A DNA stretch of 64,000 bases from NCBI GenBank assembly GCA_025363475.1, contig JANYDS010000023.1, forward strand, positions 124,001-188,000, in the 5' to 3' direction. Position numbers and translations under genes: made by a program. The notes beneath the pieces were generated by a model. The model did not search any database. It worked only from the letters and a program-made list of their open reading frames with translations, and was not told the DNA's origin. Shown here one piece after another: positions 1 through 21,772 of this stretch (positions are counted from its first letter, which is position 1; every line of letters begins with the position of its first letter). Source of the DNA: Terriglobia bacterium. GTDB lineage: Bacteria; Acidobacteriota; Terriglobia; Bryobacterales; Bryobacteraceae.

Positions 1-46
1 ATAGGTTCCTGTGGTGGATGCGGTTTTGGTTGAGTTGGTTTTTAGA

Positions 47-9564: not shown

Positions 9565-10818
9565 TCAACACTCGACTGTATTGACGGCTAGTCCGGCAAG
9601 CGAAGTTTCTTTGTAGCGACTTTGCATGTCGAGGCCGGTCTGGTACATGGTCTTAATTACCTGATCCAGTTCGACGAAGTGGCCTTCGGTTTCCTGCATA
9701 GCCATGCGGCAAGCCATGATGGCTTTTACGGCACCGACGGCGTTGCGCTCGATGCAGGGGATTTGAACCAGTCCTCCAATGGGGTCACAGGTCATGCCGA
9801 GGTGATGCTCCATGCCGATTTCCGCCGCGTGTTCGATCTGGCCGTTGGTCCCGTCGAGCGCCGCAACAAGGCCTGCGGCGGCCATGGAGCAGGCAACTCC
9901 TACTTCTCCCTGACAGCCAACTTCGGCCCCGGAGATTGAAGCGTTCTCTTTGTAAAGAACTCCAATTGCGGTGGCAGTCATCAGGTAACGGAAGATGCCT
10001 TCGGCGGTGGCGCCAGGGTGGTAACGAAGATAGTATTCACCTACCGCAGGGATAAGTCCTGAAGCGCCATTGGTGGGCGCTGTGACGACCCTTCCGCCCG
10101 CAGCGTTTTCTTCGTTGACTGCCATGGCGAAAACGTTGACCCAGTCCATCACAGCCAGGGGGTCAGCACTACCGCGTTCTGTCAGCCGGCGTGCCAGCGC
10201 GGGCGCGCGGCGGCGGACTTTCAACCCGCCGGGGAGAATGCCTTCCGTGATCAGGCCCCGCCCCATACAGGCCTGCATGGCATGCCAGATACGGTCGACA
10301 TAATCACGGACTTCCTGCTCGGTGTGCCATGCCTTTTCGTTCTCCAGGACGAGTTTCCAGATCGGCATGTTGTACCGCAGGATTTCGGCACCCGATTCAA
10401 AGGGGTAAGGCACGGGCAGCTTCGCACCTTCATCTGCCTTCTGCCCTTCGCGCAGAATGAAGCCGCCGCCGATGGAGTAATAGACAACGCTCGGACCGGG
10501 TGTCGCAGTGAAGCGCATGGCGTTGGGATGGCCGGGCAGCACCATGTCTTTGTGGAAGATGATTTCCGCCAGCGCCTGAGGCTCTTTGTCAGGCGCGACA
10601 GTTTCCGGGGATTCGCCAGCGAGGCCCAGTTGGATGGCGCGGTCAGTGCCATGGCCTTTCCCTGTTAACGCGAGAGAACCGTAGAGTTCGGCGCGAATGG
10701 TGCAGGGGGTGCCGTCCAGGCTGAGAGCGAATTCGCGGGCAGCGCGCATCGGGCCAACGGTATGTGAGCTGGACGGCCCGATGCCGATCTTAAAAAGCTC
10801 GAAAACGCTTGTTTTCAC
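9565..10818 (-). CDS. sdaA: L-serine ammonia-lyase (single-chain, iron-sulfur type)
   Basis: 417 residues. Converts L-serine to pyruvate and ammonia using a [4Fe-4S] cluster. The beta-type N-terminus has [13 protein letters not shown]; the alpha-type C-half has [34 protein letters not shown] and [20 protein letters not shown], which carry the cluster cysteines. The GTG start overlaps the cimA stop (GTGA), so it is translationally coupled to the branched-chain amino acid operon. Its pyruvate feeds both citramalate and acetolactate synthesis. This placement is unusual (see findings). Confidence 0.93.
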
Positions 10819-12359
10819 TGAAGGCGCATAAGTTCAAGCCGAAGAGCGTCCACCAGGGCATTCCAGCTGGCTTCAATCACGTCGTCCGAGACGCCGACGG
10901 TCGACCAGCTCTTTTGGTGATCAGACCATTCGACAAGTACACGCACTTTGGCGTCGGTACCCTTTTTAGTATCCAACACTCGCACTTTGTAATCGATCAG
11001 ATGGACTTCGCCGATGCTGGGGTAGAGTTCCGAGATGCAGTTGCGCAGGGCAACATCAAGAGCGTGAACGGGGCCGTGGCCGGTGGCTGTGGCAGTGTGG
11101 ATGCTGCCTTTGGCTTTCACTTTTACGTCGGCGGTGGCATGGCCGGATTTGATGGACACCTGCCAGTCTTCCACGTCAAAGAAATGGACATCGGGATGCA
11201 GTGCTTCATGCACGAAGAGCTCGAAGGTGCCGTCAGCGGTTTCCAGATCGTAGCCATCGTGCTCAAGGTCTTTGACCCGGGCAAGCAGGTCGCGCCGGGC
11301 TTCGGGCGAAAGGGTATCCGCAAGGCCGTGCTGGCGCAGACGATAGACGACATTGCTCTGGCCCGAAAGATCGCTTACCAGCACGCGCTGGCGGTTGCCG
11401 ACCAGATCGGGAGAGATGTGTTCGTAGGTGGCAGAATCTTTGAGCACCGCGCTGACGTGGATGCCGCCTTTGTGGGCGAAGGCGCTCTTGCCTACATAAG
11501 GCTGATCGTTGCGCAGGGGCAGGTTGGCCAGTTCCGCAATGTACCGGCAGGCGGCAGAAAGTTCCTGCAGCTTTTCCGGCCCGATGGTTGTATGGCCGCG
11601 TTTGAGTTCGAGATTGGCAATGATCGAGGCCAGGTTTGAATTGCCGCAGCGTTCTCCATAACCATTGAGACAGCCCTGGACGTGCGTGGCACCGTTGTCG
11701 ATGGCCGCGATGGCGTTGGCCACCGCTACATCTGAATCGTTGTGGGTATGGATGCCGAGGGTGCCGTCGAAGCGCGCCCTGATTTCAGCCACAATCTTGC
11801 CCAATTGGTCTGGCAGTGTGCCGCCATTGGTGTCGCAAAGGCAGAGAACATCGGCACCGGCTTTCTTCGCTGCTTCGAGCGTGCGGAGCGCAAAGGCAGG
11901 GTTGCGGATGTAGCCATCGAAGAAATGCTCGGCATCGTAGACCACCTCTTTGCCATGGGCTTTGAGGTAGCTGACAGTGTCGGAAATGATGGCGAGATTT
12001 TCGTCTTCCGTGATGCCCAAAGCTTTGGCAACATGGAAATCCCAGCTCTTACCGAAGATGGAAATGACCGGGGTTCCGGCTTCCACCAGCAACTGGACGT
12101 TACGGTCTTCTTCAACAGGATTCTTCGCAAAGCGCGTGGAGCCGAAAGCCGTCAGCTTTGCATGCGTGAGCTTTAGGCCCCGCGCGCGCTCGAAGAAATC
12201 CTTGTCTCTGGGATTGGAACCGGGCCATCCGCCTTCAATGTAATCAATACCCAGCTCATCCAGTTTCCGTGTAATGAGGATTTTGTCCTCCACGGAGAAG
12301 GAGACGGCCTCTCCCTGCGTGCCGTCCCGGAGAGTGGTATCGAATGTTTGAATGCGCAT
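10815..12359 (-). CDS. cimA: (R)-citramalate synthase CimA
   Basis: 514 residues. Condenses pyruvate with acetyl-CoA to citramalate, giving isoleucine without threonine. The HMGL-like catalytic domain has [12 protein letters not shown] at about 5-16, [20 protein letters not shown] and [16 protein letters not shown], followed by the C-terminal LeuA-type allosteric domain (about 370-510). The GGWPGSNP block and overall length fit the CimA subgroup rather than LeuA; leuA itself is not in the window. It starts 12 bases after ilvC and overlaps sdaA. Confidence 0.92.
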
Positions 12360-12371
12360 GGAGTTGAGCGG

Positions 12372-13409
<1,038 letters not shown>

Positions 13410-13439: not shown

Positions 13440-13961
13440 TTAAACCGCAACCGGGGTTGAAACGGGAGGCTGCAGCCGGAGTTTGCGGGCTTCGAGCGAC
13501 ATGGAAATGGCGCCGGAGCGAACAACATCAGTCTCGCCGTAGCTGCGCATGACATCGACGAATTCATCCAGCTTGCCGGGTTCACCGGTGGCTTCAATGG
13601 CGAAGCCTTCGGTTGAAGAATCCACTACGCGGGCGTGGAAAATTTCGGCTTCCTTGATGACAGCAGTACGCGTTTCCTGGCTGCAGCGCACACGAACCAG
13701 AACCATTTCGCGAATCACGGCCGGGGTTTCCGACATGTCCGATGCCTGGAGCACGTTGATTAGCTTGTTCATCTGCTTGATGACCTGCGTGCGCAGACGG
13801 TCTTCCACATCAACCACGATGGTCATGCGGGAAAGTTCCGGGTCCATCGTTTTGGCGACCGTGAGGCTCTCAATGTTGTAACCGCGGGCAGCCAGAACAC
13901 CGGTAACGCGAAGCAGCGCGCCCGGTTTGTTTTCCATTAACAGCGAAATCGTTTGCAGCAT
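13440..13961 (-). CDS. ilvN: Acetolactate synthase small (regulatory) subunit
   Basis: 173 residues (IlvN/IlvH family). The N-terminal ACT domain (about 4-78) starts with the typical ISLLMENKPGALLRVTGVLA and contains RGYNIESLTVA. The C-terminal ALS_ss domain contains VLVRVRC and ARVVDSSTEGFAIEATG. It binds the large subunit and gives valine feedback inhibition. It starts five bases after ilvB ends, so the two subunits should be made together. Confidence 0.96.
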   Translation of the reverse strand: MLQTISLLMENKPGALLRVTGVLAARGYNIESLTVAKTMDPELSRMTIVVDVEDRLRTQVIKQMNKLINVLQASDMSETPAVIREMVLVRVRCSQETRTAVIKEAEIFHARVVDSSTEGFAIEATGEPGKLDEFVDVMRSYGETDVVRSGAISMSLEARKLRLQPPVSTPVAV

Positions 13962-13966
13962 TTTTT

Positions 13967-15706
13967 CTAAACTCCCACCGGTTCTTTAGGGCAGAACACC
14001 ATGTCGTAAATCGCTCCACCGGCGGGAACCATGGGGTACACGTTTTCATCCGGCGTCACTTTGACATTGAGCAGGTAGGGGCCGGGTTCATTGACTGCTT
14101 CGAGCAGTGCGCTGGCCAGTTCCCAGGGTTTGTCAATCGTCCGGCCCTTGAAGCCGTAGGCTGCGGCAAGTTTCTCCGCGTCCGGGAAGCAGTCGAGCGT
14201 GATGGCACTGAGCCGGTTGTTATAGAACAGCGTCTGCCACTGCCGCACCATGCCGAGTACGCCATTGTTCATGACGATGATCTTGATGGGCAGCGCATGC
14301 GACGCGATAGTAGCCAGTTCTGAGAGCGACATCTGGAAGCCGCCATCTCCAGAGATGGAGAAGACCAGTTTGTCCGGCCGGGCCATCTGTGCACCAAGAG
14401 CCGATGGCATGCCGAAGCCCATGGAACCCAAGCCGCCGGAGTTGATCCAAAGCCGCGGTTCGTTGAAGCGGATTAGCTGTGCCGCCCACATCTGGTGCTG
14501 ACCAACGTCTGAACAGACGATGGCCTGACCACCGGACAGCCGGTCAATCTCTTCCATCAGGTGCTGAGGCTTGATCTCAGTATCCGAATGCGGACAGTCG
14601 TAAGGGCGCTCTGCCTTCCACACTTTGATCTGTTTGTGCCAGGTGGTCCGCGCCGGAGCTTTCACGGCTTTCGATTCCGCTTCGAGTTCCTGCAGATTCT
14701 TGATGAGCTTTTGCAGGACGCGTTTCACATCGCCCACGATCGGAATATCAGGGATGCGGTTCTTGCCGATTTCCGCCGGATCGATATCCACGTGGATCAC
14801 GCGGGCATGTTTGGCGAAGGTGTTGAGCGAACCCGTGACACGGTCATCAAACCTTGTACCCAGAGCGATGAGAAGATCGCAGTCAGTAAGCGCCATATTC
14901 GCCGCATAGCTGCCGTGCATCCCCGGCATGCTGATGAAATTCGGATGGCCGGAAGAAAGTGAACCAAGCGCCATCAGCGTGCAGACTGCAGGCAGGTTGG
15001 CGGTCTCCACCAGTTCTGTAAGCTCGGCTGAAGCGTTGGCCGCGATGATGCCCCCACCTGCGTAAACCAGAGGCTTTTCGGCTTCCCAAATCAACTGGGC
15101 AGCGCGGCGGATCTGGCCCGCATGGCCTTCGGTGAACACCTTATAACCGGGCAGGTGAACGGACTCAACAGGAACATAATGGCTGCGTGCCTGGAACACG
15201 TCTTTCGGGATATCCACCAGCACCGGACCCGGCCTGCCGCTGGCTGCGATATAGAAGGCTTCCTTGATGATCTGCGGCAGTTCCTGTACGTTCTTCACCA
15301 TGAAGTTGTGCTTGGTGCAGGAGCGTGTGATGCCGAAAGTATCCGCTTCCTGGAAGGCATCGCTGCCGATGAGCTTGGAGTGAACCTGCCCCGTGATGGC
15401 GACCAGGGGGATGGAATCCATCATGGCATCAACCAGGCCGGTCACCAGATTGGTGGCTCCGGGGCCGGAAGTCGCGCAGCAAACGCCTACCTTGCCAGTG
15501 GCGCGTGCATAACCTTCTGCCGCGAAAGCCGCGTTCTCTTCGTGACGCACGAGGATGTGGCGGATATGGTGGTCATACAGGGCGTCATAAAAGGGAAGCG
15601 TTACGCCGCCCGGGTACCCGAAGAAACATTCGACGCCTTCACGGGTAAGGCATTCCAGCAGAATTTCCGCGCCGGTCATGAGCTTGCCGTCCATCTCGGT
15701 ATGCAT
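13967..15706 (-). CDS. ilvB: Acetolactate synthase large (catalytic) subunit
   Basis: 579 residues from ATG 15706. TPP enzyme that joins two pyruvates, or pyruvate with 2-oxobutyrate. The start region MTGAEILLECLTREGVE is typical, with the catalytic Glu in VRHEENAAFAAEGYAR and a C-terminal TPP site GDGGFQMSLSELATI...NNGVLGMVRQWQ. The ATG at 15706 has AGGAG at 15718-15722 (spacing 11). An in-frame ATG at 15730 would add eight non-family residues. First structural gene of the ilvBNC-cimA-sdaA operon, downstream of the leader and terminator at 15763-15911. Confidence 0.95.
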   Translation of the reverse strand: MHTEMDGKLMTGAEILLECLTREGVECFFGYPGGVTLPFYDALYDHHIRHILVRHEENAAFAAEGYARATGKVGVCCATSGPGATNLVTGLVDAMMDSIPLVAITGQVHSKLIGSDAFQEADTFGITRSCTKHNFMVKNVQELPQIIKEAFYIAASGRPGPVLVDIPKDVFQARSHYVPVESVHLPGYKVFTEGHAGQIRRAAQLIWEAEKPLVYAGGGIIAANASAELTELVETANLPAVCTLMALGSLSSGHPNFISMPGMHGSYAANMALTDCDLLIALGTRFDDRVTGSLNTFAKHARVIHVDIDPAEIGKNRIPDIPIVGDVKRVLQKLIKNLQELEAESKAVKAPARTTWHKQIKVWKAERPYDCPHSDTEIKPQHLMEEIDRLSGGQAIVCSDVGQHQMWAAQLIRFNEPRLWINSGGLGSMGFGMPSALGAQMARPDKLVFSISGDGGFQMSLSELATIASHALPIKIIVMNNGVLGMVRQWQTLFYNNRLSAITLDCFPDAEKLAAAYGFKGRTIDKPWELASALLEAVNEPGPYLLNVKVTPDENVYPMVPAGGAIYDMVFCPKEPVGV

Positions 15707-15762
15707 GTTCTTTAAAACTCCTGGTAACATCTTTCCAACCGTTTGCGCGCTTCGCGCAAACG

Positions 15763-15802
15763 AAAAAAGGCCACCAGCCGGGTTTTACCCCTGCTGATGG
15801 CC
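15763..15802 (-). terminator. Intrinsic terminator (attenuator) before ilvB
   Basis: Read on the minus strand, GGCCATCAGC (15793-15802) pairs with GCTGGTGGCC (15769-15778), a 10-bp stem with one G-U pair. Inside it a GGG:CCC extension closes a TAAAA loop. Six T residues follow at 15763-15768. It lies between the leader peptide and ilvB, so it would stop the operon unless its 5' arm is held in the alternative pairing described for the leader. A second hairpin with a 9-bp stem follows at about 15740-15762, just before ilvB. Confidence 0.85.
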
Positions 15803-15825
15803 TCGGATTCTAAACTGCCCGATAA

Positions 15826-15837
15826 CCTCAGAAGGGG
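15826..15837 (-). promoter_or_regulatory. Antiterminator arm of the ilv attenuator
   Basis: Minus-strand CCCCTTCTGAGG, covering the last leader codons and stop, can pair with CCATCAGCAGGGG at 15788-15800, the 5' arm of the terminator. The pairing has eleven base pairs, one mismatch and one bulged A. A ribosome resting at the leader stop would cover this arm and allow termination. A ribosome stalled at the early Val codons would leave it free. This is inferred from sequence complementarity only. Confidence 0.6.
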
Positions 15838-15911
15838 ACGGATACTACGACTACTACGATCCCTGATACAGGGACTGTCGCGGTAATTCGTCCTGAGAGG
15901 CTAAGGAGCAT
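15828..15911 (-). CDS. ilv operon leader peptide (attenuation)
   Basis: A 27-residue ORF ending 26 bases before the terminator stem. It reads MLLSLSGRITATVPVS followed by GIVVVVVSVPF. That is eight Val (five consecutive, codons 19-23), three Leu, two Ile and two Thr, exactly the amino acids whose charged tRNAs control ilv operons. The arrangement mirrors the Val-rich ivbL leader of E. coli ilvBN. A weak GGAAG lies seven bases before the ATG. The codons include an internal 6-bp hairpin (TCCCTG/CAGGGA). It was found by reading the leader, being too short for normal gene calling. Confidence 0.85.
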   Translation of the reverse strand: MLLSLSGRITATVPVSGIVVVVVSVPF

Positions 15912-15961
15912 TGCTGAACTTCCAGTGTAATGTTGAAGTTTCGGAAATGCAAGCAGGCCTG

Positions 15962-16038: not shown

Positions 16039-17025
16039 ATGAAATCCCGAGTTCTATCAGGCGTTCAGCCTTCCGGCAACCTCCACATCGGCAATTACCT
16101 TGGCGCGCTTGCGAACTGGGTAAAAATTCAATACGACTACGAGAGCATTTTTTGCATAGTCGATCTGCATGCGATCACGGTTTACCAGAATCCGGAAGAA
16201 TTGAGGGCGAAGGTCCGCGAGTTGGCGGGCTTGTTCCTCGCCTCGGGAATTGACCCTAAGCAGTCGCGAATTGTGGTGCAATCCACCGTGCCGGCGCACG
16301 CAGAACTGGCGTGGCTGCTCACCTGCGTTACTCCGATGGGATGGCTGGAGCGGATGACGCAGTTTAAAGCCAAATCAGCTGCGCAGGAATCAGTTGGGGC
16401 GGGGCTCTTTCAGTATCCGGTCCTGATGGCTGCTGACATTTTGCTGTACCAGGCCGGGATTGTACCTGTGGGTGAGGATCAGACCCAGCACCTTGAACTT
16501 GCGCGCGATATCGCCCAGCGTTTCAACTCGCTCTATGGTGAGACGTTTGTGATGCCCGCCACCAGCCTTCCTCTTGTGGGTGCACGCGTTATGGGTCTTG
16601 ATGACCCTACAACAAAAATGAGTAAATCGGCCCAGGGTGCCGGCCATTTAGTCGCGCTGCTGGATCCGCCGGACCGCATCCGCAAGACGATCATGCGCGC
16701 TACAACCGATTCAAATCCGGCCGTTGATTTCGAAACGATGGGACCCGGCGTTGCGAATCTGCTGGCTATTTTTCAGGCGTTTGCCGGCTGGAGCAGCGAC
16801 CAGATGCGCGCTCATTTTACCGGTTTGCGCTATGGTGATCTAAAAAAACAGGTGGGCGAAATGGTGGTGTCGAAACTCGACCCCATTCAGCAGCGGTTCC
16901 GTGAGATCACCGCTGATCACAGCTATGTGGATCAGGTGCTACGTGACGGAGCTGAAGCCGTTGCGCCTATCGCCAATTCCACGGTGCAACTGGTGAAGCA
17001 ACGGATGGGCGTCTTTACCTGGTAA
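16039..17025 (+). CDS. trpS: Tryptophanyl-tRNA synthetase
   Basis: 328 residues, normal class I TrpRS length. It has SGVQPSGNLHIGNYLGAL with the HIGN signature (about 16-19), the tryptophan-pocket block QYPVLMAADILLY, GEDQTQHLELARDIA and the KMSKS loop. It charges tRNA-Trp in the cytoplasm. There is no obvious Shine-Dalgarno before the ATG. It diverges from the ilv operon across the ~130-base region holding the candidate ilv promoters; a Trp-specific leader or T-box was looked for and not seen. Confidence 0.97.
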   Translation: MKSRVLSGVQPSGNLHIGNYLGALANWVKIQYDYESIFCIVDLHAITVYQNPEELRAKVRELAGLFLASGIDPKQSRIVVQSTVPAHAELAWLLTCVTPMGWLERMTQFKAKSAAQESVGAGLFQYPVLMAADILLYQAGIVPVGEDQTQHLELARDIAQRFNSLYGETFVMPATSLPLVGARVMGLDDPTTKMSKSAQGAGHLVALLDPPDRIRKTIMRATTDSNPAVDFETMGPGVANLLAIFQAFAGWSSDQMRAHFTGLRYGDLKKQVGEMVVSKLDPIQQRFREITADHSYVDQVLRDGAEAVAPIANSTVQLVKQRMGVFTW

Positions 17026-19313: not shown

Positions 19314-21590
19314 CTACGACAGTTGCTGCGGTGAAGGCACGATCACTTTATCCGGCCCGTGGGCTTGCACGGCGGCAACTACTTCGGCGACGACAGCGCC
19401 ATCATTGTTATCCAGATCGCGCTTCAGGCGATTCAGCGCGACACTAATTACATCACGATGGCGCAGTTCATCGCCAGTGCCCCTGGTTATCAGGTCCAGC
19501 CAGAGACGATGGGTGAGGTCGACATCTTCCGGCCAAAGCCTGGGCGGATGCGGGCCAAGATTGAAGAACATCGACTGATTGACGTCAGGCATCACCACTT
19601 CAAGCGAGAGCGATGGACGCGGCTTCGCCAGTTCTTCCCAGGCCGCACCAATCAGGCGACCCTGTTCCGCCGGCGTCAGGCTGGGCGAAAGTCCGGTCAC
19701 GATTCTTGCGCACTGCAGTAAAGCGGCAGTCTGCAATATTGCCACCCACGGTGATGTGCCAGCCACGCTGAGAAGTTCCACATGTTTGCCTGCTTTTTCC
19801 GCAAGTCCCACGACCCGCGAAAACACGAGTTGTTCGGAATCTGCAAACACCTGATCGGATTCAAGCCCGTGCTCGCCGGAACCCGCCTGTGTCACCACTT
19901 TCACCGTCAGCACAACAATGTCTTCGCGCCGGGTGTCAGTCTTTTCGATCACTTTTTGCAGGTGTTCCAGGTGATGAGGATTGCGTACAGCAACCAGAAT
20001 GCTGCCCGGTCTTACCTTCAGCGTCTCTGCTGAAATCTCATCGCTCGTATGCAGCCGGAAATGTTCATTCTCCTGACCGTGGATATGGGTAACTCCCTTG
20101 TTTCGCCTCTTGTTGTAGCGTTCTGAAAACTCGAAGACCAGAAAGAAGGCGATGGTAAATATCAAGCCGGAAACGGTCGCCACCTTCTTCGTCAGCACAT
20201 TAATACTGGCCAGCAAAAACAGAATGATTGTTACCACTGCCAGTCCGATGGGGATTTCGGTCTTCCCAATCCGCAGGTTGAACGGCACTTTCCATTCACG
20301 ACCGTGGGGCATCTTGTAGCGCAGTACCAGCATCGACATGGCGTTCATCGTGAAGCTCCAGGCGACACCAAACGCGTACGCTTCGCCCAATACTTCAATG
20401 TTGCCGCGGCTTACGATAATCGTGACTAACTGTAAACCTGCAATCACGTTGATGATTCTGCTGGTAGTGCCAAATTTATGGTGCGGTTTGCGGAACCATT
20501 CGGTCAGCACGCCGTCTTCCGCCACACGGTTGACAACCCCGTTGGAGCCGATCAGCGAAGTATTCACTGCCCCGGAAAGAATGAGCACGCCGACCAGTAC
20601 CACAAACCCGTGGAACGCCAGTCTGACCGCGTAGGGGCCGGCCAGGAACATCGACAAGCCGCCAATCAGATTGTCCAGGTACTTATGCCGCTCGCCATCC
20701 GGAATCAGCATGACTGCGAAGAATGAAACCAGCGAGGTAAACAGAAGGCTGTAGACAAAAATTACAAAACCCGCGCGTTCCAGATTTTTCAGTTTTGGAG
20801 ACGCAATTTCCCGGTTCACCTGCGCCAGGCTTTCCTCGCCACTCATTGCCAGCAGCGAATGCCCCATGCCGATCATGATCGCGATGGCCGGAATCGCTGA
20901 TGCCCCGTGACCCTTGAGCCATCCCAGCGAATCAGGTCCGAACTTGATGTTCGACATCGCGGGAAACGGCACCGGCTGATAGCCCTTGCTAACGATCGTC
21001 ACGATACACCAGACAATCAGGATGACGACCATCACTGTGGTGATTTGCATAATCCGCAAGGCCTTCTCGCTGGATTCATGCATGCCGATGATGTTCTTGC
21101 GCCAGAAGTAAAACGTAACCAGAACGGCAAAGCCGGCGGCGAAATATTCCGACGGTACATGCGCCACATTCAGGTGGAAGTAATCGATGGATTCGTTTAC
21201 CAGACCGCCCAGATACAAACCCGCACTAACTCCGCTGATCGGCCCCGTAAGCACGTAATCGAACATGAGCGCCGAGACCGAGAATTTCGCGTAGACCGGA
21301 CCCATGGCTTCGCGAACCACGCGGTAAACACCGCCCCGCACAAACATGCTGCAGCTCTCGATATATACGGCCCGAACCGCATACGAGAACAGCATGATGC
21401 CGAGGATGAACCACGGGGCAGACTTGCCAATCGCAGTTTCCGCAATTCCCCCGACATAGTAAGCCGACGACGCAAGATCACTCAAAACAATAGCGGCAGC
21501 CCGCCAAAACGAGATAAACGACAACATGACAGTTGTCGCGACAACTACTTTCCTTGTTACTGCGGGGCGGTCAGATGGGACAGCGGTCAA
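19314..21590 (-). CDS. KimA-like APC-superfamily permease (first copy, riboswitch-controlled)
   Basis: 758 residues, TTG start with GGAG seven bases upstream. It has the same layout as the following gene: ~12 membrane segments, with VLSDLASSAYYVGGI, FVRGGVYRVVREAMG and SALMFDYVLTGPISGVSAG. A hydrophilic C-terminus from about residue 490 contains a UspA-like segment (GSILVAVRNPHHLEHL, ARIVTG). The 5' leader contains a ydaO-type c-di-AMP riboswitch, whose known target genes are largely potassium and osmolyte transporters. Potassium import is thus the leading hypothesis. The pair looks like a tandem duplication. Confidence 0.82.
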   Translation of the reverse strand: MTAVPSDRPAVTRKVVVATTVMLSFISFWRAAAIVLSDLASSAYYVGGIAETAIGKSAPWFILGIMLFSYAVRAVYIESCSMFVRGGVYRVVREAMGPVYAKFSVSALMFDYVLTGPISGVSAGLYLGGLVNESIDYFHLNVAHVPSEYFAAGFAVLVTFYFWRKNIIGMHESSEKALRIMQITTVMVVILIVWCIVTIVSKGYQPVPFPAMSNIKFGPDSLGWLKGHGASAIPAIAIMIGMGHSLLAMSGEESLAQVNREIASPKLKNLERAGFVIFVYSLLFTSLVSFFAVMLIPDGERHKYLDNLIGGLSMFLAGPYAVRLAFHGFVVLVGVLILSGAVNTSLIGSNGVVNRVAEDGVLTEWFRKPHHKFGTTSRIINVIAGLQLVTIIVSRGNIEVLGEAYAFGVAWSFTMNAMSMLVLRYKMPHGREWKVPFNLRIGKTEIPIGLAVVTIILFLLASINVLTKKVATVSGLIFTIAFFLVFEFSERYNKRRNKGVTHIHGQENEHFRLHTSDEISAETLKVRPGSILVAVRNPHHLEHLQKVIEKTDTRREDIVVLTVKVVTQAGSGEHGLESDQVFADSEQLVFSRVVGLAEKAGKHVELLSVAGTSPWVAILQTAALLQCARIVTGLSPSLTPAEQGRLIGAAWEELAKPRPSLSLEVVMPDVNQSMFFNLGPHPPRLWPEDVDLTHRLWLDLITRGTGDELRHRDVISVALNRLKRDLDNNDGAVVAEVVAAVQAHGPDKVIVPSPQQLS

Positions 21591-21630
21591 GCGTATACTC
21601 CGGTTCCTGCCTCAACGGCAGCTCTCAAAT

Positions 21631-21753
21631 TTACCTGCGGGGTTAGCTGACGGGCTGGAGCTTGAAAGTACTCCGTCCGGAACTTCGGACTGCGCCCCGG
21701 TTACTCGGGTCCCCCGCTCCGCTGCGAAGAGTCTCGCAAAGAACTCGGCATCC
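21631..21753 (-). promoter_or_regulatory. Cyclic di-AMP riboswitch (ydaO/yuaA type)
   Basis: The minus-strand leader of the permease operon shows the ydaO hallmarks in order. They are a 5' GGATGCCGAG, a GCGGGGGACCCG block, GGGGCGCAGTC, a variable hairpin (TCCGAAGTTCCGGA), and the conserved 3' GCCCGTCAGCTAACCCCGC followed by AGGTAA. The B. subtilis element has ACCCGACAGCTAACTCCG at that place. Downstream, CTGCC/GGCAG can form a small hairpin just before the GGAG ribosome site, with no T-tract. Control is therefore more likely translational than by termination. Recognised from memory of the consensus; not run through Infernal. Confidence 0.85.
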
Positions 21754-21772
21754 GTCAGATTAGCATGTAGTC

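Follow-up and report, generated by a model that had tools for sequence, protein, structure and literature searches.

The window, i.e., the whole stretch of 64,000 nucleotides (64 kb) analyzed here, contains a group of five genes on its minus strand with the order ilvB-ilvN-ilvC-cimA-sdaA. This order had been claimed in an initial annotation and agrees with the NCBIfam matches. The genes and their divergent neighbor are:

13967 to 15730, minus strand: ilvB, acetolactate synthase large subunit (ORF from the ATG at 15730; TIGR00118)
13440 to 13961, minus strand: ilvN, acetolactate synthase small subunit (NF008864, TIGR00119)
12372 to 13391, minus strand: ilvC, ketol-acid reductoisomerase (TIGR00465)
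10815 to 12359, minus strand: cimA, citramalate synthase (TIGR00977)
9565 to 10818, minus strand: sdaA, L-serine ammonia-lyase (TIGR00720), its start overlapping the end of cimA
16039 to 17025, plus strand: trpS, divergent upstream gene (NCBIfam)

Judged by their spacing, the five genes would form one transcript. The place of sdaA, the last gene of the ilv operon, under branched-chain control is puzzling. The closest named IlvB relatives come from acidobacterial and Bryobacterales contigs (72-74% identity), which supports the acidobacterial origin assumed for the stretch. Elsewhere in the window, a c-di-AMP riboswitch (RF00379, 70 bits) was found at 21617-21760 on the minus strand, upstream of a permease-like gene (19314-21590).

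A short leader ORF lies in the 308-nt intergenic region between trpS and ilvB, together with a promoter-like pair and two alternative RNA pairings:

15947 to 15952, minus strand: -35-like hexamer TTGCAT
15924 to 15929, minus strand: -10-like hexamer TACACT, separated from TTGCAT by a 17-nt spacer
15828 to 15911, minus strand: leader peptide ORF, 27 codons plus TGA; MLLSLSGRITATVPVSGIVVVVVSVPF
15843 to 15857, minus strand: control codons, five Val numbered -9 to -5 relative to the stop, with the near-invariant GTA in last place (15845-15843)
15826 to 15837, minus strand: segment 2, 5' strand of the antiterminator, overlapping the last codons and the stop of the leader
15788 to 15800, minus strand: segment 3, common to the antiterminator and the 5' arm of the terminator (folding, covariation)
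15767 to 15804, minus strand: intrinsic terminator hairpin with a T run of six T at 15768-15763

Re-reading of the sequence confirmed the minus-strand ORF of 27 codons with five consecutive Val codons. The Val run reads GTA GTA GTC GTA GTA (15857-15843, minus strand) and is followed by TCC GTC CCC TTC TGA, so this short leader carries a codon run for the end product of the operon. No other ORF of 10-60 codons on either strand of the 64 kb contains five consecutive Val codons, and when the intergenic region was dinucleotide-shuffled 5000 times, such an ORF never arose. The leader RNA folds with a z-score of -5.55 relative to shuffles. Leader ORFs of this kind are so short that gene callers likely overlook them.

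Between the leader ORF and the first gene, the stretch and most of the aligned relatives carry an intrinsic terminator. In the predicted fold it consists of a 12-bp outer and a 3-bp inner stem (15804-15767, -28.7 kcal/mol). The initial annotation had described a 10-bp stem with six T, located 26 bases behind the stop codon. The six T and the position beyond the stop were confirmed, and the stem is longer; the gap is 23 nt (15828 to 15804) instead of 26, because the terminator stem begins lower than noted. The alternative pairing of 15826-15837 with 15788-15800, also proposed there, is the predicted fold before the 3' arm of the terminator exists. Computation thus gives an antiterminator exclusive with the terminator, freed by a stalled ribosome and covered by a terminating one. 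For these folds, the ribosome footprint was assumed to end 12 nt past the first base of the A-site codon. In the ribosome-masked fold lacking the 3' arm, the antiterminator reaches -22.8 kcal/mol when one of codons -9 to -7 occupies the A site, -17.4 kcal/mol at codon -6 and -11.8 kcal/mol at codon -5, and it is gone from codon -3 on. Stalling at three of the five Val codons would therefore free the whole antiterminator, and at the other two a part of it. With the footprint used, the GTA at -5 is not the best stall site and leaves about half of the antiterminator energy. Full-length folds contain the terminator at each of the 28 ribosome positions tried; therefore, the antiterminator has to be assumed to form first. 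The antiterminator is also the fold predicted for ribosome-free RNA that does not yet include segment 4, and hence termination need not follow when the leader is untranslated. For this one sequence, the full-length folds include a 1:2 protector.

The TTGCAT-17-TACACT pair (15952-15924) is located directly upstream of the leader ORF. If transcription started about 7 nt past TACACT, the leader ATG would be preceded by a 5' UTR of about 5 nt. A TTGNNN-16..18-TANNNT pair with an in-frame start was detected upstream of 98 of 123 loci (48 leader loci and 75 hits of the covariance model described below), compared with 4 of 175 control windows from coding sequence, and TTGCAT itself occurs in 77 of the 98. 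At these loci, the median distance from the -10 box to the first in-frame start is 13 nt, and values of 6-9 nt are common; as the start codon was taken to be the first in-frame ATG, GTG or TTG past the -10 box, these values are biased to short 5' UTRs. The short distances suggest that the leaders may often be read from leaderless or near-leaderless mRNA. A transcription start downstream of 15763, which the initial annotation regarded as incompatible with its reading, is argued against by the conserved upstream pair, which does not itself map the start.

Taken together, ribosome-mediated transcription attenuation of the ilvBNC-cimA-sdaA operon, as proposed initially, is very probable; it is supported by the anatomy, the exclusive pairings and the conservation in relatives. 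Its basis is sequence and computation, i.e., the ORF, both pairings, the covariation, the promoter-like pair, the conservation and the match between codon and gene, and from it we infer start site, stalling, coupling, termination and derepression. Transcription would begin just upstream of the leader ORF, with the ribosome trailing the polymerase. If Val-tRNA (in most relatives also Ile-tRNA) is short, the ribosome would halt in the Val run and segment 2 (15837-15826) would be free to pair with segment 3 (15800-15788); the terminator would then come too late and the operon would be transcribed. If charged tRNA is ample, the ribosome would reach the stop codon and cover segment 2, segment 3 would pair with segment 4, and transcription would end at the T run.

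For comparison with relatives, an IlvB search was carried out, which matched 53 of 61 genomes; three partial hits (G012, G021, G055) were left out of these. Among 54 ilvB loci, 48 with a leader and a plausible stop were kept, and L005 and L008 (no usable upstream DNA), L007, L132 and L133 (no convincing leader) as well as L123 (related end, stop not in place) were dropped. The leader peptides at the 48 loci are variable, and most end Val/Ile-rich and then with Pro-Ala, Pro-Gly or Pro-Val. In an alignment of 37 of the 48 (A1; L109, L121, L122 and L124-L131 left out), codon -5 is almost always GTA, and the aligned leaders also show CCCCG..TGA and, as 5' arm of the terminator, a sequence like GGCCAYCAGCGGGG. 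The covariance model R1, built from these 37 sequences, has matches in 123 of the 399 genomes searched from the class, counted as matches to the element, with the downstream gene identified for a part of them. Within the same family 95 of 101 genomes match, within the sister family f3 7 of 14, and among the others 21 of 284, many of these last matches being weak; these counts were made by hand, with misses taken as listed by kinship. Six of the 101 same-family genomes gave no match in the covariance model search. The initial annotation had made its reading depend on conservation in relatives, and both the Val/Ile codons and the terminator are conserved in the leader alignments and R1 matches.

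Terminator and antiterminator covary across the aligned relatives. In the 37 sequences, 89.1% of the terminator cells are paired, 8 of 14 pairs are changed on both sides, and 35 cells carry such changes compared with 14.5 in shuffles. For the antiterminator in fixed columns, 80.9% are paired, 6 of 12 pairs show changes on both sides, and 9 cells carry them compared with 4.1 in shuffles; a control slid by +2 had 11 such cells, yet only 41.7% were paired. The groups differ by one column in the position of the segment 3 GGGG; as this weakens fixed-column counts, a duplex permutation was used. Across the 43 of the 48 loci included in it, cognate segments 2 and 3 pair better than swapped ones (sum -869.2 vs. 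-771.6, s.d. 17.2), and none of 10,000 permutations was as good, with kinship ignored and segment 3 apparently misplaced in five retained rows (L086, L087, L094, L116, L129). The clearest case of covariation is L104, where segment 2 is TTCGCCTG and segment 3 is CAGGCGAA, compared with CCCCG..CTGA and TCAGCGGGG or near at most loci. Most of 10 loci from genus g21 (sister family f3) keep the leader end and the 2:3 pairing. A clear intrinsic terminator was absent from most of these 10, the exceptions being L130 and, weakly, L122 (3:4 hairpin, T run); leaders L124-L129 and L131 have the 2:3 pairing and end in, e.g., ..VAVACPG, but lack a clear terminator.

In addition, we analyzed the control codons in two sets, the 48 ilvB leaders (first set) and 75 R1 hits (second set). 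Of the latter, blastp assigns 59 to ilvB, 8 to cimA and 2 to ilvN; outside this assignment are L253 (ilvB-like start by eye), L257, L258, L259, L168 and L177. Codon -5 is GTA in 43/48 and 47/59 ilvB leaders of the two sets and differs in 5/48 and 12/59, respectively. Within ilvB, GTA is the rarest Val codon. It accounts for 129 of 233 Val codons in the leaders and 91 of 1927 in ilvB of the same loci in the first set (up to the first 500 codons), and for 135 of 258 vs. 96 of 1333 in the second, and these Val and GTA counts lean upward because picking of the stops favors Val/Ile and R1 includes the GTA column. Leader stops were picked by a score favoring Val, Ile and complementarity (first set) or by Val/Ile near the model hit (second set); the choice among Val codons played no part in the score. 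Among Ile codons of the second set, ATT reaches 63% in leaders vs. 27%, and codons for Pro, Ala and Thr lean to C endings; the increase of GTA and ATT is therefore not a general AT richness. The GTA bias may point to one Val isoacceptor as the sensor, and selective charging of isoacceptors, as treated in the available part of PMC1183508, is one explanation for it.

Codon -5 also follows the regulated gene. At the 59 ilvB loci it encodes Val in 48 and Ile in four. Of the eight loci where the element precedes cimA, seven, belonging to three genera of the same family, have ATT at this codon, and the eighth, which comes from another class, has GGG. Ile at -5 is thus found in 7/8 cimA and 4/59 ilvB leaders (Fisher p = 2.9e-6, kinship ignored). 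CimA makes an Ile precursor. The ilvB leaders L172, L173 and L176 of g44 and g58 have lost the GTA at -5; L173 has GTT there.

This match of codon and gene bears on an alternative in which the C-terminus of the leader peptide (..PA*, ..PG*) stalls the ribosome at termination on sensing a small molecule, as do TnaC-type leaders. Such nascent-peptide arrest would account for CCC (Pro) at -2 in 47/59 and Ala at -1 in 54/59 ilvB leaders, but the conserved leader end also encodes the antiterminator strand, the RNA changes hit both strands while the peptide end changes too (EFA in L104, GFA in L113), and the peptide at 15828-15911 ends with VPF. Together with the tracking of the gene by codon -5, this makes the alternative improbable. 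Even less probable is a riboswitch or T-box that senses amino acid, tRNA or ppGpp directly, with the ORF being incidental. T-boxes control ilv genes in other bacteria. In some bacteria, ppGpp riboswitches do so, according to the accessible text of PMC10272879. However, the leader region of the stretch gave no Rfam match at gathering score, conservation falls in the codons, segment 2 and the terminator, and there is scant room between the -10-like box and the ORF. The element had no match at gathering score in seven loci either, including L001 and L268. Three hits in the leader region in a search to E = 10 (E 0.99, 5.7 and 6.2) are far below gathering scores and were regarded as chance. Equally hard to sustain is a constitutive terminator next to an unrelated ORF, e.g., one trailing the upstream gene: terminators are common, but ORF and pairing are conserved, and since trpS is divergent, no trpS transcript needs to be ended there.

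Ribosome-mediated attenuation may not be limited to the ilvB operon. R1 matches precede IlvN-like ACT proteins at L170 (blastp) and L168 (below the NCBIfam cut-off), an ACT protein (by eye) followed by ilvA (NCBIfam) at L177, and, as a weak hit, ilvD (by eye) at L182. When 396 genomes were drawn evenly from the phylum, nine had an R1 match with an E value of 1e-4 or less, and six of the nine lie outside the class; five of these six were read (L260 left out). In another class, a leader ending VVVVVTVVRPTG precedes pheA (NCBIfam) and then ilvB (by eye) at L258, and one ending VGVVVLVVRPTG precedes pheA, which looks split, and then ilvD at L259, both genes named by eye. These two leaders are Val-rich. 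Also outside the class, leaders were found before ilvN and an ilvB-like gene (L256) and before cimA (L261). The R1 hits L257 and L179 were rejected as elements, as no Val/Ile leader was seen, and so was the weak hit L183, with a His run in another frame (by eye).

The source genome also contains a leader with a His run, MSVFSAARHHHHHPVNHARRVLA, upstream of hisI-hisG (L268, about 718-930, reverse complement; hisI named by eye), followed by a GC-rich hairpin and T run. Of 30 hisG loci examined, out of 38 hisG matches, 21 have a His-rich leader and hairpin: 19/22 in the same family, 2/2 in f2 and 0/6 in f3.

We tentatively consider, at somewhat less than an even chance, that the Acidobacteriota use one modular attenuator for their branched-chain regulon, i.e., the ilvB operon, cimA, ilvN-like ACT genes, ilvA, ilvD and pheA-ilv operons in other classes. 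The near-fixed codon -5 would be swapped with the gene, being the rare Val codon GTA before ilvB and the Ile codon ATT before cimA; the GTA bias would reflect sensing of one Val isoacceptor, and many leaders would be leaderless or near-leaderless. If this holds true, the theory of selective charging becomes testable far from enteric bacteria. The family itself supplies about 100 natural variants that differ from one another in codon choice, in register and in their hairpins.

Most of what is known about leader-peptide attenuation comes from Proteobacteria and Actinobacteria. The mechanism as such is already known, and it is its occurrence in Acidobacteriota that appears to be new, in the form of a conserved attenuator family whose pairings covary and whose control codons match the regulated gene, accompanied by a His leader in the same genome. 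No paper describing leader-peptide ilv attenuation in Acidobacteriota was found in the open-licence literature and few subscription papers covered; Lopatovskaya et al. (2010, Mol Biol 44:128) could contain acidobacterial predictions. According to a 2010 survey, in the part available, the attenuators predicted in phyla such as Acidobacteria were almost all without associated functions (PMC2965389). With reinitiation in view, acidobacterial leader genes are counted by distance to the next gene in PMC4833913, the accessible text of which does not treat ilvB.

Among known systems, the attenuators of the enteric ilvBN (ivbL) and ilvGMEDA operons combine a leader containing control codons with competing hairpins and amino acid control. 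The acidobacterial element is likened to them by these described features, whereas its operon also contains ilvC, cimA and sdaA. Both enteric attenuators are listed in the part of PMC1183508 at hand. The ilvB-OMG and Leptospira ilvB motifs are similar in that BCAA-codon-rich uORFs precede ilvB, those of Leptospira with at least three consecutive Val codons, but the uORFs of both are also Thr-rich (PMC10272879, as far as available). Neither motif matched the leader region up to E = 10 in Rfam 15, which may lack either. The attenuator of the Corynebacterium glutamicum ilvBNC operon (ilvB-II motif) likewise has a BCAA-rich leader, an antiterminator and a terminator, with GUA and CUU named as conserved control codons and the start codon one nucleotide from the transcription start (PMC11857589 and PMC10272879, in the sections accessible); leaderless or near-leaderless reading was reported for this leader in the same sections of PMC11857589. 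C. glutamicum belongs to another phylum and its leader has 15 codons compared with 27 here. Going by these partly available descriptions, the acidobacterial leaders are set apart from it by the shared GTA at -5 and by a segment 2 which overlaps the stop codon.
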